Positions 1 to 40,905 of a stretch of 45,248 bases of DNA are shown in pieces; position 1 is the first letter of the stretch; each line of letters begins with the position of its first letter. The translations under genes and the position numbers were made by a program. The notes beneath the pieces are model-generated. The model did no database searches. It saw only the letters and a program-made list of their open reading frames with translations, and was not told the origin of the DNA. The stretch is from Chitinophaga pinensis (GTDB lineage: Bacteria > Bacteroidota > Bacteroidia > UBA4408). The stretch spans positions 1 through 45,248 of the forward strand of contig CAMBZU010000020.1 in the NCBI GenBank assembly GCA_945872355.1, in the 5' to 3' direction.

Positions 1-413
1 AGTTCAGTAAATTTAACATCAAGTTATATAGGAGGCAATACATGGTCAAACACTGCAACCACCGATGCAATTACAATTAACGCTGTAGGTGTTTATGCTG
101 TTGATGTAACTGAGACGGATGTTAATGGCTGTTCATCAACATCATTGCCAATTACAGTTACAGTAAATGCATTACCCGCGCAACCAGTAATCACAGCTAG
201 TGGAGCAACTACCTTTTGCTTTGGCAGTTCAGTAAATTTAACATCAAGTTATGCAGGAGGCAATACATGGTCAACCACTGCCATCACCGATGCAATTACA
301 ATTAACACTGTAGGTGTTTATGCTGTTGATGTAACTGAGACAGATGTTAATGGCTGTTCATCAACATCATTACCTATTACAGTTACAGTAAATGCATTAC
401 CCGCGCAACCAAT
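1..413 (+). repeat. Near-identical 225-bp direct tandem repeat inside the surface-protein gene
   Basis: The block starting at base 1 recurs at base 226 with about a dozen or fewer mismatches through about 413, a period of 225 bp or exactly 75 codons. The repeats keep the frame, so copy-number change would lengthen or shorten the protein without a frameshift. The array probably continues left of the window. Confidence 0.85.
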
Positions 414-3400
414 AATTTCTGCTTTTGGGTCCCTTGTAATTTGCAATGGCTCTTCGGTAACATTAGCTTCCAATGAGCCTAGCGGAAACACTTGGAGCAA
501 TAGTGAGATTTCTCAATCTATTACAGTTGTATCACCAGGTAATTATGATGTTACCTATATTGATGGAAATGGTTGTAGTCAAACATCAGATATAGTTCAA
601 GTAATAGTGAATACACCAATCCCAGCAACATTTAATTTAATAAATAATGTTGCTTGCGAAGGAAGCGCATCAGTTATTTTAAGTGGGGGCTTGCCTTTAG
701 GAGGCAATTACAGCGGCGCTGGTATTATTAATAACGTTTTATATCCAACATTGCTTCCAGGAGGAATTTACAATATTGATTATATCGTTAATGATATCAA
801 TGGTTGTGCATCAATAGCATCTCAAAACTATATTATCAACTCAGCACCAATAGTTTCTGCTGCTGCAACTCAACCTGTAATTTGTTTAAATGATGCACCT
901 ACATTATTAACAGGAACTCCAGCAGGAGGAATATTTATTGGAAGTGGAATTGTTGGCAGTAGCTTTGATCCTATTGTTGCTGGCGCAGGAATTCATACCA
1001 TTACTTATTTGTATTCAGATTTGAATACATGCTCAACTGCAGCCACTTTTGATATTATTGTAAATCCATTGCCTCAACTTACGCTGTTACCTGTAACAAA
1101 CCTTTGCGTAAATAGTGGGGTGTATAGTTTAAACAATGGATTCCCAACCGGTGGAACTTATTTAATTGATGGTATCCTTGTGTCAGAAATCAATACAAAT
1201 ATACTTGGTGTTGGTATACACACTTTAACATACAATTACAATCCTTCAAGTGGCTGTGGCAATAGCATTTCCTCACAATTCACTATTAATGCGCTTCCAA
1301 ATGTTAGCTTGCCAGCCTATGCCGATATTTGTCAAACGGCCGCCCCTTTGATTTTATCGGGTGGTCTTCCTGGAGGCGGTAATTACACTGGTTCAGGGGT
1401 TTTAGGGGATGTGTTTTATCCTAATTTGGCAAATCCAGTAAATGCAATTACATATACTTATATTGATGCGAATGGCTGTACTGCTTCACTTTCACAAAAT
1501 ATTAATGTGTTAGCACCTCAATCTGTAAACTTTTCGCCACTATCACCTATTTGTTTAAACTCACCTCCTTTTGCTTTAAACGCTGCAATCCCTTTAGGAG
1601 GCACATACAGTGGCTTAGGCATTGTTTCAAACACCTTCAATCCAGCTGTTGCTGGAGTTGGTATACATACTGTTAACTATGCAGTGTCTGATATTAACGG
1701 TTGTTTATCGATAGCAAATCAAACAATTACAGTAAATGCATTGCCAATTATTATTAGTGTTGCTGTCCCTGCCTTATGTAGCAATAATAGTGCTTATGCA
1801 TTAAACTTTGCACAACCAGTGGGAGGTATTTACAGTGGTACAGGAGTTAGCAATGGTTTATTTGATCCTGCTATATCTGGCAATGGAATATTTAATCTAT
1901 TGTATGTTTATACTGATAATAATGGCTGTGCCGATAGTGCAAATCAAATTATTACTGTTAATGCAGCACCAATAGTTACCCAGCCAAACTATACTAACAT
2001 ATGCGGCAATTCAGGCTTAATTGCATTAAATAATGGATTGCCAGTAGGTGGTATTTATGTTGGCAATTTTGTGAACACTGGATTTTTTGATAGCGATTTA
2101 AGTGGCGATGGAACCTTTGCAATTAACTATTCATTCACTGATGTAAATGGCTGTAGCAACAGTGCAAGTGCCAATATTATTGTGAATGCTTTGCCAACCT
2201 TAGCCTTATCGTCATTAGGAAATATTTGTGCTGGTGCTGGCAATATAACACTCAGCAATGGATTGCCAACAGGAGGAAACTATTATGGACTTGGCGTGAA
2301 TAACGGTGTTTTAGATCCAACTGTACTTCCAAATGGCACCCAAAGTTTAGGTTATACTTTTACTGATAGCAATGGATGTCTTGATTCTACATCAATAAGT
2401 TACAACATTTACAATTTACAAGCCAATGCAGGCAGCGATCAAAGTATCACTTGTACCACATCGGCATTGTTGCAAGGGCAAAGTAACTATTCGGGAATAG
2501 GCGCATTAACCTATACTTGGAGTCCATCCATAGGCTTAAGCAGCACAAATACTCAAAATACTATTGCAACACCTTCATCCGCTACAAACTATATACTCAC
2601 TGTTAGCGATGGTGTTTGTATTTCTTACGATACAGTATTAGTAGTAGTAGCACAACCCAATTTCAATTTGGCGGTAACACCAAGCGCTCAAATTTTGAAC
2701 GCTGCACCTTTTATTGTGTTCTTCACCAATAATACTCCAAGTCCATCCAATTATTCGTTTGTGTGGGATTTTGGAGATGGAACAACCTACAATGGTTTCC
2801 AACCAGTGTATCATAACTACACAAGCAACGGAAGCTTTAATGTAACACTCATTGCAACTGCACTTGGCAGTGGATGCACAGATACCTTAATAATGTCAAA
2901 CTTGATTACTTGTAACAATGGTATTTTTTGTAATGACAGTGCTAATATTGTTATAGATGGCGTGTTAATTCCAAACAATAGTAACTACAGCACTTCAATT
3001 TGTGCTAACCAAAACTTTGTGCTTGGTTGCAATACAGGGAATTATTCCTATCAATGGTATTTTAATGGCATACCACTGCAATCAGCTTTAGGAAGTATGT
3101 ATGCCCCAACAGTTTCAGGTTATTATAGTGTTGGTGTTGAAGATAGCAGCTGTATAAATCTTTCGAGCCCCGTATATATTACTATACTGCCTCTACCTGC
3201 GGTTCCTTACATAACTAGCGCTGGCACTAATAATTTTTGTGGAGGAGGATTATTAACATTAACTACAAATGCAGGTTATACTTCCTATTTGTGGTCCAAT
3301 GGTGCCACACAAAGCACTATTACAATCAATACTTCTGGCAACTATTGGGTACAGGGCTTCGATACTAATGGTTGTTATTCTCAATCAATAGATTTTGCAG

Positions 3401-4284
3401 TCAATGGAAGTAATATGTTGCCTCAATACATTTGCGTTGCTACGGTGGATACGCTATTAAATAAGAACAGAATAATTTGGGAGAAGCCAATTACAACTTC
3501 AATTGATTCATTTGTAGTTTATAAAGAATCAACTATTGCTGGTGTGTTTAATGAAATAGGAAGGGTTGACTACCAAGACAACAGTGAGTTTTTAGATACT
3601 GCTTCATTGCCTTCAGTAAATAATAACAGATATAGATTAGCTATTAAAGATAGTTGTGGAAATATGACAACTCAAGGAGATTTGCATGGTACTATTAAAA
3701 CCTGGATAACGCCGCTTGGAAGTGGTGATAGTCTTGAGGTATTCTTTACTAAATATATTGGCATTGACTCATTAACATATACACTTTATAGAGGCGCTTC
3801 TGCTGCAACTTTAAGCCCAGTTGGTAGTTCATATATATTCAACAATAACAATGCTAACTTTTACTCCATAAAAGATCTGTCGCCACCTGCCTATTCATCT
3901 GGTTATGTATACTATCAAATTAGGGCAAATCTTTTATATTTATGTAACAGCGATAGCAATATGTATCAACAGTCAATTTCAAATACAGTAAGCTATGGCA
4001 ATGCACTTGGAATTGAAGAAGGAAGCCAACTTTTCGAAGTTAATGCTTTTCCCAATCCTAACAATGGAACATTTAATATTAGTATAACAACTGGTTTAGT
4101 AGAAGATATAAACCTTGCTATTTACAATCAAATCGGTGAGCTTGTTTGGTTCAAAAAACTCGAAAAAACGCATGGTAAAAACAACTTATTTGTTCCACTT
4201 GAACATGCGGCACAAGGAGTATACCTGCTGAAAGTAACTAGCAGTAAAAAAGTAATCAATAAGAGATTAATTATCAATAAATAA
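1..4284 (+). CDS. Giant T9SS-exported repeat surface protein, 3' part (5' end outside window)
   Basis: The reading frame is open from base 1, so the N-terminus lies left of the window; the first ATG inside (145) is only an internal codon. In order, the product shows two near-identical 75-residue Ig-like units, a related shorter unit, and eight units of about 75 residues (about 616-2415), each with a conserved Cys, a central GG-x-Y-x-G-x-G segment and a YxDxNGC motif. Then come a divergent Ig-like domain, a PKD domain (WDFGDGTT near 2765), further Ig-like modules, a fibronectin-like region, and a type A T9SS C-terminal sorting domain (FPNPNNGTF near 4050). Such proteins are exported across the outer membrane and fixed to or released from the surface. 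Adhesion is a family-level guess and the ligand is unknown. The paired Cys residues fit oxidative folding in the envelope. A full paralogue follows after 25 bp. Confidence 0.9.
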   Translation, partial: SSVNLTSSYIGGNTWSNTATTDAITINAVGVYAVDVTETDVNGCSSTSLPITVTVNALPAQPVITASGATTFCFGSSVNLTSSYAGGNTWSTTAITDAITINTVGVYAVDVTETDVNGCSSTSLPITVTVNALPAQPIISAFGSLVICNGSSVTLASNEPSGNTWSNSEISQSITVVSPGNYDVTYIDGNGCSQTSDIVQVIVNTPIPATFNLINNVACEGSASVILSGGLPLGGNYSGAGIINNVLYPTLLPGGIYNIDYIVNDINGCASIASQNYIINSAPIVSAAATQPVICLNDAPTLLTGTPAGGIFIGSGIVGSSFDPIVAGAGIHTITYLYSDLNTCSTAATFDIIVNPLPQLTLLPVTNLCVNSGVYSLNNGFPTGGTYLIDGILVSEINTNILGVGIHTLTYNYNPSSGCGNSISSQFTINALPNVSLPAYADICQTAAPLILSGGLPGGGNYTGSGVLGDVFYPNLANPVNAITYTYIDANGCTASLSQNINVLAPQSVNFSPLSPICLNSPPFALNAAIPLGGTYSGLGIVSNTFNPAVAGVGIHTVNYAVSDINGCLSIANQTITVNALPIIISVAVPALCSNNSAYALNFAQPVGGIYSGTGVSNGLFDPAISGNGIFNLLYVYTDNNGCADSANQIITVNAAPIVTQPNYTNICGNSGLIALNNGLPVGGIYVGNFVNTGFFDSDLSGDGTFAINYSFTDVNGCSNSASANIIVNALPTLALSSLGNICAGAGNITLSNGLPTGGNYYGLGVNNGVLDPTVLPNGTQSLGYTFTDSNGCLDSTSISYNIYNLQANAGSDQSITCTTSALLQGQSNYSGIGALTYTWSPSIGLSSTNTQNTIATPSSATNYILTVSDGVCISYDTVLVVVAQPNFNLAVTPSAQILNAAPFIVFFTNNTPSPSNYSFVWDFGDGTTYNGFQPVYHNYTSNGSFNVTLIATALGSGCTDTLIMSNLITCNNGIFCNDSANIVIDGVLIPNNSNYSTSICANQNFVLGCNTGNYSYQWYFNGIPLQSALGSMYAPTVSGYYSVGVEDSSCINLSSPVYITILPLPAVPYITSAGTNNFCGGGLLTLTTNAGYTSYLWSNGATQSTITINTSGNYWVQGFDTNGCYSQSIDFAVNGSNMLPQYICVATVDTLLNKNRIIWEKPITTSIDSFVVYKESTIAGVFNEIGRVDYQDNSEFLDTASLPSVNNNRYRLAIKDSCGNMTTQGDLHGTIKTWITPLGSGDSLEVFFTKYIGIDSLTYTLYRGASAATLSPVGSSYIFNNNNANFYSIKDLSPPAYSSGYVYYQIRANLLYLCNSDSNMYQQSISNTVSYGNALGIEEGSQLFEVNAFPNPNNGTFNISITTGLVEDINLAIYNQIGELVWFKKLEKTHGKNNLFVPLEHAAQGVYLLKVTSSKKVINKRLIINK

Positions 4285-35636: not shown

Positions 35637-36035
35637 TTATATGTTTGAACTAGGTTTTATCATGAGCGTTTCAATTTTATGTAAAGCCTTAATCATACTG
35701 GCCTCTATAGCAATAGAAGGTTCAATTTTTTTATTGGCATATTGAAATGAAATAAAAAATTTTACTTGCTGATCAACACACTTTTCTAATAAACTATGTT
35801 TGTTTTTTCGGTAAGATTCCCTCAATCTTCTTTTAGTAAGATTACGATCATGGGCATGCTTAAAAAGATGTTTCGGCGATGAAACCATTATCACCACAGG
35901 AAATTCTGTAGAATATGAATGAGGCAGTAGCGTAATTTTTAAAGGATAAATTTTAAAAGATGTACCCTTTTTGTAGAGTTCTTCTATCCATTTTTTGCTG
36001 CATAATCTTTCAGCTTTGGAAAAGGTATTTTTCAT
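35637..36035 (-). CDS. rnpA: Ribonuclease P protein component
   Basis: RnpA is the small basic protein that helps the catalytic RNA of RNase P remove 5' leaders of pre-tRNAs. The 132-residue protein has the N-terminal SKAERLCSKKWIEELYK and the signature RNLTKRRLRESYRKN in which the conserved Arg/Lys residues lie. rpmH is not next to it; hemD ends 25 bp upstream. The family is unmistakable. Confidence 0.93.
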   Translation of the reverse strand: MKNTFSKAERLCSKKWIEELYKKGTSFKIYPLKITLLPHSYSTEFPVVIMVSSPKHLFKHAHDRNLTKRRLRESYRKNKHSLLEKCVDQQVKFFISFQYANKKIEPSIAIEASMIKALHKIETLMIKPSSNI

Positions 36036-36060: not shown

Positions 36061-37257
36061 TTACTTGCCTTTATTTACCGATGTAATATATTGTTCCAAG
36101 GCCATAGTCATGCTTGGTGCCTGTGGATTTGGTGCTTTAATATCAACATGTAAATTGGCATCTTCAACTGCTTTTGAAGTAGTAGCTCCAAATGCTGCAA
36201 TTCGCGTTAAGTTTTGTTTAAAGTCAGGGAAGTTTTGAAACAACGACTTAACTCCCGCCGGACTAAAAAATACAATTACATCGTAATTTACATTGGCTAA
36301 ATCGCTCAAATCGCTACACACAGTTTTATAAATTACTGCTTTGGCATATCTAATTTTGGCTTTTTCAAGTAACTCAGAACCTTCCACATTTGCAATATCA
36401 GTACAAGGCAATAAAAATTTATCATCTTTATGCTTTTTAATTACATCCATCATATCAGCAAAGGTTTGCTTGCCATGAAAAATTTTACGCTTACGGAAAA
36501 TAACATATTTCTGAAGGTAATAAGCTGTAGATTCTGAAATGCAGAAATATTTCATGCTTTCCGGCACGGTAATTCTCATTTCTTGACACATTCTGAAATA
36601 ATGATCAGCAGCGTTGCGACTTGTGAAAATTACAGCACTATAATCTAAAATGTTAATTCTATCACGTCTAAAATCACTTGCTGAAATTCCTTCAACATGT
36701 ATAAACTCTCTAAAATCAACTTTTATATTGCATTTTTTTGCCAAGTCAAAGTAGGGCGATTTTTCACTTTCCGGCTTTGGTTGTGTAACTAAAATGCTTT
36801 TAACCTTATTTCTTGGAGTTGGTGGTATTAAGCTTACTGGCTCTGGTACAACCTCCGCAATTACAGTGTTTGAATGCTTTGCTGAAACTACTTTAACGGT
36901 TTTTTTAACTGTTGTAGTTTTTGCCTTTGCTACTGGTTTTGCATTGTTTTTTACAGGTGCTTTTTCAACTACCGCTTTTTCAACGATAACTTTTTTTGTA
37001 GGTGCCTTTTTAGCTGCTGCTTTTGTAACGATAACTTTTTTTGCAGGTGCCTTTTTAGCTGCTACTTTTGTAACGTTCAGCTTTTTTGTAGGTGCTTTTT
37101 TAGCTGCTGCTTTTGTAACGTTCACCTTTTTTGCAGGTGCTTTTTTAGCTGCTGCTTTTGCAACGTTCACCTTTGCTGCTGACTTTTTAGCAGGAGCTAC
37201 CTTTGTGTTCTTTTTCTCAGCGCCTTTTTTGGCTACCAATATATTTTTCGCCTTCAA
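36061..37257 (-). CDS. hemD: Uroporphyrinogen-III synthase with N-terminal histone-like repeat tail
   Basis: The C-terminal domain (about 150-398, NKVKSILVTQP to NKGK) fits the two-lobed HemD enzyme, which closes hydroxymethylbilane to uroporphyrinogen III in heme synthesis. Landmarks are VIFTSRNAADHYFR, CISESTAYYL, FFSPAGVKSLF and AAFGATTSKAVEDA. The N-terminal about 150 residues are low-complexity Lys/Ala/Pro/Val, with four or five tandem copies of a 15-residue unit like AAAKKAPAKKVNVTK (residues 35-103). The same frame is unbroken and no Met occurs before the enzyme domain, so the tail appears to be part of the protein. The start is TTG at 37257. It follows the DUF4271 gene by 57 bp and precedes rnpA by 25 bp. 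Confidence 0.88.
   Translation of the reverse strand: MKAKNILVAKKGAEKKNTKVAPAKKSAAKVNVAKAAAKKAPAKKVNVTKAAAKKAPTKKLNVTKVAAKKAPAKKVIVTKAAAKKAPTKKVIVEKAVVEKAPVKNNAKPVAKAKTTTVKKTVKVVSAKHSNTVIAEVVPEPVSLIPPTPRNKVKSILVTQPKPESEKSPYFDLAKKCNIKVDFREFIHVEGISASDFRRDRINILDYSAVIFTSRNAADHYFRMCQEMRITVPESMKYFCISESTAYYLQKYVIFRKRKIFHGKQTFADMMDVIKKHKDDKFLLPCTDIANVEGSELLEKAKIRYAKAVIYKTVCSDLSDLANVNYDVIVFFSPAGVKSLFQNFPDFKQNLTRIAAFGATTSKAVEDANLHVDIKAPNPQAPSMTMALEQYITSVNKGK
36949..37155 (-). repeat. 45-bp in-frame tandem repeat encoding the AKKAP tail of HemD
   Basis: Four to five adjacent 45-bp units encode the 15-residue repeat in HemD residues 35-103. Units differ by few substitutions (VNV/LNV/VIV, APA/APT). Period and frame are preserved. 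Confidence 0.85.
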
Positions 37258-37314
37258 ATTTCGTTTTTAATTAATTAAATTAATATTCAACAGATATATC
37301 GGTAATTAAATTAC

Positions 37315-38406
37315 CTAAATAATTAGCTTTACGACAATTATTAATGGTAAAATTTCAAGAGTGCAAAGATATAAAAAAATATAAACAGTAGAATAGGTAT
37401 TCATGTTTGGTATACCCAAACTTTTAATCATCCTAATAATAAACCCTATTCCTAGGGATGCAAAGCCAAAATAAATAATTAAATCTTTGTTAATACCCAC
37501 GCTGTAACAAAGCAAAATACATAAGGCCAAGAGCACTATCCCAAGTATTTGAAGCACCAAAAACTGATTAAATATATATTCATCTGTTTCTTTGTATGCC
37601 TTAAAAAGATATCCCCCAAATTTATTAGCTAAAAACTTTAAAAGGTAAAAAACCACACATGCCAATAAAATGGATAAGAACTTTTGCCAGCCAATTTCGC
37701 CCATTAAGTTGAGATGAAAGTGTTGATTTACTAAATAAAAAAACAATGAAATTGACACTAAAAAAACAGCTGATAAAGCCACTGATGTGCTTTGAGTTAG
37801 CGCATTTTCTTCCCTGGTTATTTGATTAGAGAACCTCTTACTTAGGAAAGCATTCAAAAACAATGAGAATTTTTTTTGATAAAAAACGCGCAAAATGGCA
37901 ATTGTAAAAAGCAATCCTAAAAAAGTAAAGGCTAACCAATTTTGATGATAGCTAATCTTTGGTTTTAATTCAAAACGATGCGTTGAAAGTAAATGTTGTG
38001 CAAACATACTTTCCGAAAACATTATGGGTTTTAATTGGGCAGTATCTTTAAATTCCTTTGAAACTATTAAATTTAAACCTTTCGGTAGGGTGTCTATTTC
38101 GAGCACTACTTTTCTTGATACTGCTTTTAAAGAATCTCTGTTGAGGGTGCATCGGTAAGGCACCTTAAACAATACATTTTCGCTGGTGGCTATTGAAGTG
38201 TCTTTTGCATCTTCAGCAACACCTGTAAGTTGCAAATTGTTATTGGCATTGGTATTTCTAATTGCGACAGTATTTGGAATAACTGCTGTAACGTTATTAT
38301 TGCTTATTGTTAAAGCAGCATCTGAATTATTTTGCCGAGTTTGTGGGAACACTTTTAAAAAAATAGTGCACAAATTTAGTGATATTTCAATGGATAAAAA
38401 TTCCAA
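37315..38406 (-). CDS. DUF4271-like membrane protein
   Basis: This protein of up to 363 residues has six or more membrane segments in its C-terminal half (from about residue 160) and a polar N-terminal region of about 150 residues. The C-terminal core (EYIFNQFLVLQILGIVLLAL, LGIGFIIRMIKSL, LYLCTLEILPLIIVVKL) fits the DUF4271 family, which neighbours hemD in many Bacteroidota. The start is uncertain: the longest frame begins with TTG 38406, and the hydrophobic stretch LNLCTIFLKVFP just after could be a signal segment. No function is known. It is first in the run DUF4271, hemD, rnpA, APC. Confidence 0.78.
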   Translation of the reverse strand: MEFLSIEISLNLCTIFLKVFPQTRQNNSDAALTISNNNVTAVIPNTVAIRNTNANNNLQLTGVAEDAKDTSIATSENVLFKVPYRCTLNRDSLKAVSRKVVLEIDTLPKGLNLIVSKEFKDTAQLKPIMFSESMFAQHLLSTHRFELKPKISYHQNWLAFTFLGLLFTIAILRVFYQKKFSLFLNAFLSKRFSNQITREENALTQSTSVALSAVFLVSISLFFYLVNQHFHLNLMGEIGWQKFLSILLACVVFYLLKFLANKFGGYLFKAYKETDEYIFNQFLVLQILGIVLLALCILLCYSVGINKDLIIYFGFASLGIGFIIRMIKSLGIPNMNTYSTVYIFLYLCTLEILPLIIVVKLII

Positions 38407-40260: not shown

Positions 40261-40905
40261 ATTGCCACAGATTCACAGATTTTTAAACGCAAAGAGCACA
40301 AAGCAGGCGCAGAGTGCGCAGAAAAATCAATGTACTCGCAATTGCACATTTTCAAATTAAAAATGGCACATTGATAAATTTTTCCCATTAGCTAATCCGC
40401 TAATCGATTCATCAGCTAATTAAACATTGCCACAGATTCTCAGATTTTATAACTGCAAAGCACGCAATGAAGTTATAGAGTTCGCAAAGTAATAATAACA
40501 TCCATTTTCAAATTAAAAATGGCACATTGATAAATTTTTCCCATTAGCTAATCAGCTAATCGATTCATCAGCTAATTAAACATTGCCACAGATTCACAGA
40601 TTTTAAACGCAAAGAGCGCAAAGCAGGCGCAGAGTGCGCAGAAAGATAAAGCGACTCGCAATTGCACATTTTCAAATTAAAAATGGCACATTGATAAATT
40701 TTTCCCATCAGCTAATTCGCTAATCGATTCATCAGCTAATTAAACATTGCCACAGATTCACAGATTTTTAAACGCAAAGAGCGCAAAGCAGGCGCAGAGT
40801 GCGCAGAAAGATCAATCTACTCGCAATTGCACATTTTCAAATTAAAAATGGCACATTGATAAATTTTTCCCATCAGCTAATCCGCTCATTCGCTAATTAG
40901 CTAAT
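40261..40905. repeat. Four-copy noncoding tandem repeat, period about 160 bp
   Basis: Copies start at 40261, 40426, 40582 and 40746, each opening ATTGCCACAGATTC. Each has three parts: A, a CGCAAAGAGCGCAAAGCAGG-type run; B, a conserved segment around ATGGCACATTGATAAAT; C, GCTAAT words ending CAGCTAATTAAAC. Copy 2 has a divergent part A (GCAAAGCACGCAATG), so the array is mosaic. Parts B and C are nearly identical in all copies. Short reading frames crossing it are not coding. The block fills the space between aspS and the convergent surface-protein gene. Confidence 0.9.

Follow-up and report, generated by a model that had tools for sequence, protein, structure and literature searches.

What is a HemD-like protein doing with a long tail of the histone H1 type? 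The question is raised by a single ORF of 398 codons with a TTG start on the minus strand (36061-37257) of a 45,248-nt stretch of DNA from Chitinophaga pinensis (contig CAMBZU010000020.1); in the following, this whole stretch is called the window. Three points are considered: whether the tail is part of the protein, whether the folded part is a heme enzyme and which role the tail might play.

Domain architecture of the window protein

Residues 150-398 (36061..36810, minus strand) form a HEM4 domain with HemD fold. It belongs to a Bacteroidota clade encoded next to DUF4271 and rnpA, designated A-type below. Residues 1-149 (36811..37257, minus strand) constitute an N-terminal tail rich in Lys, Ala, Pro, Val and Thr, which is disordered according to its composition and to AlphaFold2. 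Hence, the roughly 150 extra residues on a HemD-fold domain announced in a preliminary description are indeed encoded. The Pfam HEM4 model (PF02602) matches residues 197-384 of the ORF with 110.7 bits. AlphaFold2 predicts the domain with pLDDT values mostly above 90, and its top 13 Foldseek matches are all U3 synthases, so the U3 synthase (U3S) fold is present. The equivalent of the active-site Tyr (Y158 in E. coli) is Y161 of the domain and is found in 92% within the A-type clade. Tyr161 and Thr211 are retained by nearly all A-type members; Phe replaces Tyr in two tailed lineages.

The tail contains 40 Lys, 32 Ala, 24 Val, 12 Pro and 12 Thr next to 1 Arg and 5 Asp plus Glu, resulting in a net charge of +36. 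Its pLDDT is about 43-61, and AlphaFold2 predicts no secondary structure. It thus displays the traits of the histone H1-like class (disordered, Lys/Ala/Pro-rich, very basic), in agreement with the composition first reported. A tandem array was detected by TRF at 36947-37174 (minus strand) with a period of 45 bp (15 codons), 5.1 copies and 88% match; its units read e.g. VNVTKAAAKKAPTKK. The 15-residue repeats of the preliminary description therefore exist, but roughly the other half of the tail is free of them, and the tails of three sister species, whose composition is alike, lack them altogether. On this comparison, the array is a recent expansion in the window's species.

Other features of the window were noted. 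An antisense open frame of 158 aa (36794..37270, plus strand) overlaps the tail; it has no family match and was rejected as a gene, since it is a by-product of the Lys/Ala/Pro codons. In each of the four species of the genus, one reverse frame has hardly any stops (0-1). A 225-bp tandem repeat at positions 1-416 (1.8 copies, 94%) overlaps the start of a very large ORF (145-4284, plus strand). Rfam elements were not found in the window.

Start codon and translation of the tail

Upstream of the HEM4 domain, the frame of the window gene contains no ATG. TTG or GTG starts at frame residues 3, 9, 32 and 47 would all leave at least about 100 tail residues, and the next start after the latest upstream GTG falls inside the domain. 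A start codon at the domain boundary is present in none of the four species of the genus. The tail frame in the window has no stop codon, whereas the two remaining forward frames have 14 and 10; across the four species, 0 stops in the tail frame contrast with 4-14 in the other forward frames. Both the unbroken frame and the lack of an alternative Met that could yield a bare enzyme, as originally claimed, were thereby corroborated.

Two short motifs mark the ends of the tail. At its beginning (37234..37257, minus strand), a TTG start is followed by KAKNILV. This resembles TTG-KVKSILV, the start of several tail-less relatives, with 5/7 identities between KAKNILV and the canonical KVKSILV; at least 4 matches to KVKSILV were found at none of 290 ORF starts in a sample of the genome. 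KAKNILV is likely a remnant or a duplicate of the ancestral HemD-like start. At its end, the junction (I)PPTPRNKVKSILV (36790..36825, minus strand) occurs genus-wide as PTP(R/A)NKVKS(I/V)LVTQPKPE. As judged from sequence, the tail is very probably translated.

A-type and HemC-linked HEM4 proteins

Is the domain a heme enzyme? The genome from which the window originates encodes a second HEM4 domain as part of a fusion of HemC and HemD, which measures 527 aa if counted from its first start. The fusion gene is located elsewhere in the genome (G000:C2) in the order hemA, hemCD fusion, hemB. A-type and HemC-linked HemD proteins of the same genomes form separate clades with an SH-aLRT of 98 in a quick tree with long branches. 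Conservation is stronger among the A-type proteins than among the HemC-linked HemDs, and Y88, C90, Y98, R106, R108, P227 and S233 (domain numbering) are near-invariant in the A-type only.

The A-type is almost ubiquitous in its class: 393 of 396 Bacteroidia genomes and 369 of the 370 of good quality contain one, counted as matches to the window domain and not by tree placement of every match. By contrast, HemC was detected in 230 of the 370 good-quality genomes and is missing in 140. HemC was scored by a single Pfam model at the cut-off of that model, and in 60 genomes the HemB result backs the call. Among these 60, which were checked for both, the 15 without HemC also lack HemB, and all 15 keep the A-type (G009, G014, G015, G017, G020, G021, G023, G024, G029, G032, G034, G038, G040, G049 and G059). 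One of them, G032, is a genome of only 0.5 Mb; there, the A-type gene overlaps a class II (D/K/N) tRNA-synthetase gene. Likewise, in Bacteroides ihuae, used as a named control, HEM4 is present and HemC and HemB are absent. Since the protein is kept by relatives without heme synthesis and a separate heme version is encoded in the same genome, the label probably is mistaken or tells only part of the story.

Three genomes point in the other direction. In G054 (locus L181), the sole HEM4 protein is of the A-type and is encoded directly beside hemC. G033 and G045 both have HemC and HemB, yet no HEM4 protein other than the A-type was detected in them. Therefore, the A-type can perhaps still be HemD, and in the lineage of G054 it may be the working one. 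All of these observations agree with a HemD, bifunctional or ancestral, to which a second role independent of heme was added. Taken over the clade, sequence and distribution suggest that the A-type probably has a non-heme role, and the window protein probably either is no heme enzyme or does more than act as one. Of the assignment of the fusion partner to the heme pathway, the HemD fold and the catalytic Tyr stand; the separate clade, the hemCD fusion of the same genome and the 140 of 370 genomes without HemC speak against the rest.

Gene neighbourhood

The gene is flanked on the same strand by a DUF4271 gene directly upstream (37315..38406, minus strand; Pfam 116.5 bits) and by rnpA, encoding the RNase P protein, directly downstream (35637..36035, minus strand; Pfam 46.2 bits). 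At 115 of 120 testable loci, the gene directly upstream of the A-type one is DUF4271, and rnpA follows the A-type gene in 86 of the surveyed loci. In five genomes without HemC (L213, L215, L216, L222, L223), a PorP/SprF-like gene replaces rnpA after the A-type gene. A membership in type IX secretion via PorP/SprF was set aside because only these 5 surveyed loci show it downstream; in the 0.5-Mb genome, no PorP/SprF gene was found beside the A-type gene, yet the protein is kept. Elsewhere in the window, an intergenic array of 165-bp units (40261-40886; 3.9 copies, 86% match, 'TTGCCACAGATTCACAGATTTTTAAACGCAAAGAGCGCAAAGCAGGCGCAGAG...') lies between an aspartyl-tRNA synthetase-like gene and the gene of a PKD/Por-secretion-tail protein.

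Distribution of the tail

Within the genus, represented by the window and three further genomes (two of them JALRAS010000023.1 and JADLFI010000035.1), all four proteins carry a tail of 109-149 aa with 27-32% Lys. They share the start TTGAA(G/A)GC and the junction. As the tail is present in all four, the fusion is real, as had been proposed. Other genera of the window's family (G004-G007) have no tail. Outside this family, N-terminal Lys-rich tails were found in all 31 inspected proteins of family f41 (G047 and relatives; K 24-34%). Most of them begin at an ATG, and many end in a motif like PxPxIEVSNxPKxK; the remaining f41 loci have open frames of similar length. C-terminal tails occur in f45 (7 of 8 proteins with complete end), f6 (5/6), f29 and f39. 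The C-terminal tail of L037 (G045) is Lys/Glu-rich and not H1-like and was scored as a weak case only. The long frames that precede the domain in genomes of f9 (L031, L032) turned out to be spurious: They contain no lysine, and the canonical TTG is located at the domain.

Parsimony requires at least 6 changes of the tail state on the domain tree. Support for the deep branches is weak, which makes this number a parsimony count and not proof; about two changes follow from the starred branches alone. Judged from this distribution, the tail arose several times, at either end, within one protein family. Most Bacteroidia members of the A-type family are tail-less, so the tail is dispensable for the core function. 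Tail-less relatives had been named beforehand as an argument against the fusion. This argument holds for the other genera of its own family but not for the genus, which is tailed throughout, or for the unrelated families that gained a tail independently.

Is such a tail a property of these genomes? Baselines were taken from genome samples amounting to about 845 kb. When 445 kb of the window's genome were scanned for Lys-rich segments, one ORF of 326 had such a tail. Four further proteins matched weakly: one lipoprotein-like, one secreted, one of TPR/PD40 type and one pseudouridine-synthase-like. The last of these (L140:8184-9095) has a Lys-rich C-terminal tail and comes closest among the other sampled ORFs. 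In G047, G012, G035 and G051, with 300 ORFs scanned in the same way, the HemD-like protein of G047 was the sole match. Thus, no comparable Lys/Ala/Pro tail exists among the 624 other sampled ORFs (325 of the own genome plus 299) of the five tailed genomes, and the tail, when searched against its own genome, retrieved nothing but itself. This means, the tail is a habit of the family, not of the genomes.

These data bear on the strongest alternative, according to which the tail is a near-neutral disordered expansion of slippage-prone, A-rich codons at a tolerant terminus and has no dedicated function. Beyond charge, composition and junction, the tail sequence is indeed little conserved, and its length varies between species as well; the 45-bp array is limited to the window's species, and the sister genera lack any tail. 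Against this explanation, the tail recurs in one family and is found in none of the 624 other ORFs. Moreover, the Lys content (about 0.25-0.34) and the low acidity are held across f41 and the genus, and a junction motif is kept in f41 and in genus g1, each with its own. We regard this explanation as unlikely, albeit worth serious consideration.

Proposed role and remaining alternatives

We tentatively favour the following reading, although we would not put it quite at even chances: The window protein is an A-type HemD-fold protein that is not the dedicated heme HemD of its genome, has a non-tetrapyrrole role and carries a real tail tethering it to a polyanion. The A-type protein would fulfil a housekeeping role tied to DUF4271 and rnpA, the genes next to it. 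With a charge of about +30 and independent of position and sequence, the tail would act as an electrostatic tether that concentrates the protein on a polyanion. By analogy to the KPAA tails of AlgP and PhaF, this would most likely be nucleic acid, either RNA and ribosomes or the nucleoid. Nucleic acid is considered the likeliest partner due to DNA binding by AlgP peptides, the adjacency of rnpA and expression links in Porphyromonas gingivalis: KPAA-repeat peptides of AlgP bind DNA in vitro (PMC9239181). PG_0202, the P. gingivalis HemD-like gene, is co-induced with rnpA (PG_0201) and yidD (PG_0200) (PMC10101095). The uroporphyrinogen-III synthase gene PGN_0310 is tabulated together with ribosomal-protein genes altered in a ppGpp-null mutant (PMC6994654). 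DNA or RNA binding by the tail would be plausible.

For its origin, motifs and array suggest a path. The 5' end of the gene would have been duplicated, A-rich codons would then have expanded in the interval that separates TTG-KAKNILV, the old start, from KVKSILV, the second copy, and recent 45-bp slippage would have lengthened the tail in the window's species. That 5'-end duplication and A-rich codon expansion gave rise to the tail is probable.

A related proposal assigns the tail to a granule or nucleoid organiser: It would bind DNA or polyphosphate and position a complex in the manner of the KPAA tails of AlgP and PhaF. The tails of these proteins belong to the same composition class and are, in function, the nearest precedent (PMC9239181). 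As neither a granule nor a nucleoid protein was found in the neighbourhood and no role in granules is known for the HEM4 domain, this proposal appears improbable. Slightly more doubtful still is a working U3S, the tail of which captures the octacarboxylate hydroxymethylbilane or docks on HemC and so limits formation of the dead-end isomer I. The HemD fold with its active-site Tyr and Thr, the presence of HemC in all tailed genomes checked except the 85%-complete G060 and the adjacency to hemC in G054 would suit it. It is weakened by the HemC-HemD fusion of the same genome, which by itself favours channelling; in addition, the family persists in 140 good genomes without HemC, and the gene neighbours are not heme genes. 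Finally, a mis-annotated start, with the tail as untranslated leader and the enzyme beginning at the domain, can be dismissed as highly improbable: TTG/GTG starts without ATG are in its favour, but the missing boundary start in four species, the stop-free frame and the ATG at the tail start in most f41 members oppose it.

A wider reading is conceivable and is stated with a little more reserve than the one favoured above: The near-universal DUF4271-adjacent 'HemD' of Bacteroidia would not be a heme enzyme in the first place but a phylum-specific housekeeping protein built on the HemD fold, with RNA, ribosomes or the envelope of the cell as examples of what it might act on. About six lineages would independently have added an H1-like tail, at either end, by which the protein is kept on nucleic acid. 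The annotation 'uroporphyrinogen-III synthase', found in essentially every Bacteroidia genome and usually beside rnpA, is probably misleading. It would make heme auxotrophs appear to own a step of the pathway and hides a conserved protein. The repeated gain of the tail represents a natural experiment pointing to a polyanion partner. In the open-access literature, no account was found of the function of this HemD-like protein, of DUF4271, of Lys-rich HemD tails or of the mismatch with HemC.

Comparison with known systems

Canonical HemD proteins (1JR2, 3MW8, E. coli HemD) share the fold of the domain (TM-score to target 0.69-0.71) and the Tyr and Ser positions, with 13-19% identity in structural alignments. 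Unlike them, the A-type forms a separate clade, is usually unlinked to hemC, is kept in genomes without HemC and can carry a tail.

Chlamydial HctB/HC2 (PF07382) and the Burkholderia histone H1-like proteins (NF038053) share their composition with the tail. The profile matches to the window protein are partial: HC2 scores 23.5 bits at a curated cut-off of 40, NF038053 37 bits at a cut-off of 80. In contrast to the window fusion, these are stand-alone nucleoproteins. Closer in design are AlgP and PhaF, in which a disordered Lys/Ala/Pro repeat tail of ~150 residues is attached to a small folded protein and the repeat number varies, as in the window gene (PMC9239181). The folded part of AlgP is helical, PhaF is a granule-associated phasin and the tail is C-terminal (PMC9239181); the window family has a HEM4 partner, which places it outside this group, and its tail is N- or C-terminal depending on the lineage.

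Within the Bacteroidetes, Fur/Har resembles the window protein by a Lys-rich C-terminal tail reportedly confined to Bacteroidetes homologues. It differs in that this tail comprises 20 residues and is attached to a DNA-binding regulator (PMC4222909). The counterpart in P. gingivalis, PG0202 ('HemD, putative'; COG1587, pfam02602), appeared in 2007 in a list of Bacteroidetes-specific signatures (PMC1887533). It was called A-type by its annotation, its adjacency to rnpA and this listing, not by sequence. In the part of that study concerned with it, no tail is described for PG0202 and its occurrence without HemC is not discussed (PMC1887533). P. gingivalis is a heme auxotroph that cannot make protoporphyrin IX (PMC4222909). 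By annotation and by its place beside rnpA, PG0202 is the same DUF4271/rnpA-adjacent HEM4 protein as that of the window, listed as specific to the phylum (PMC1887533) and here present in a heme auxotroph.
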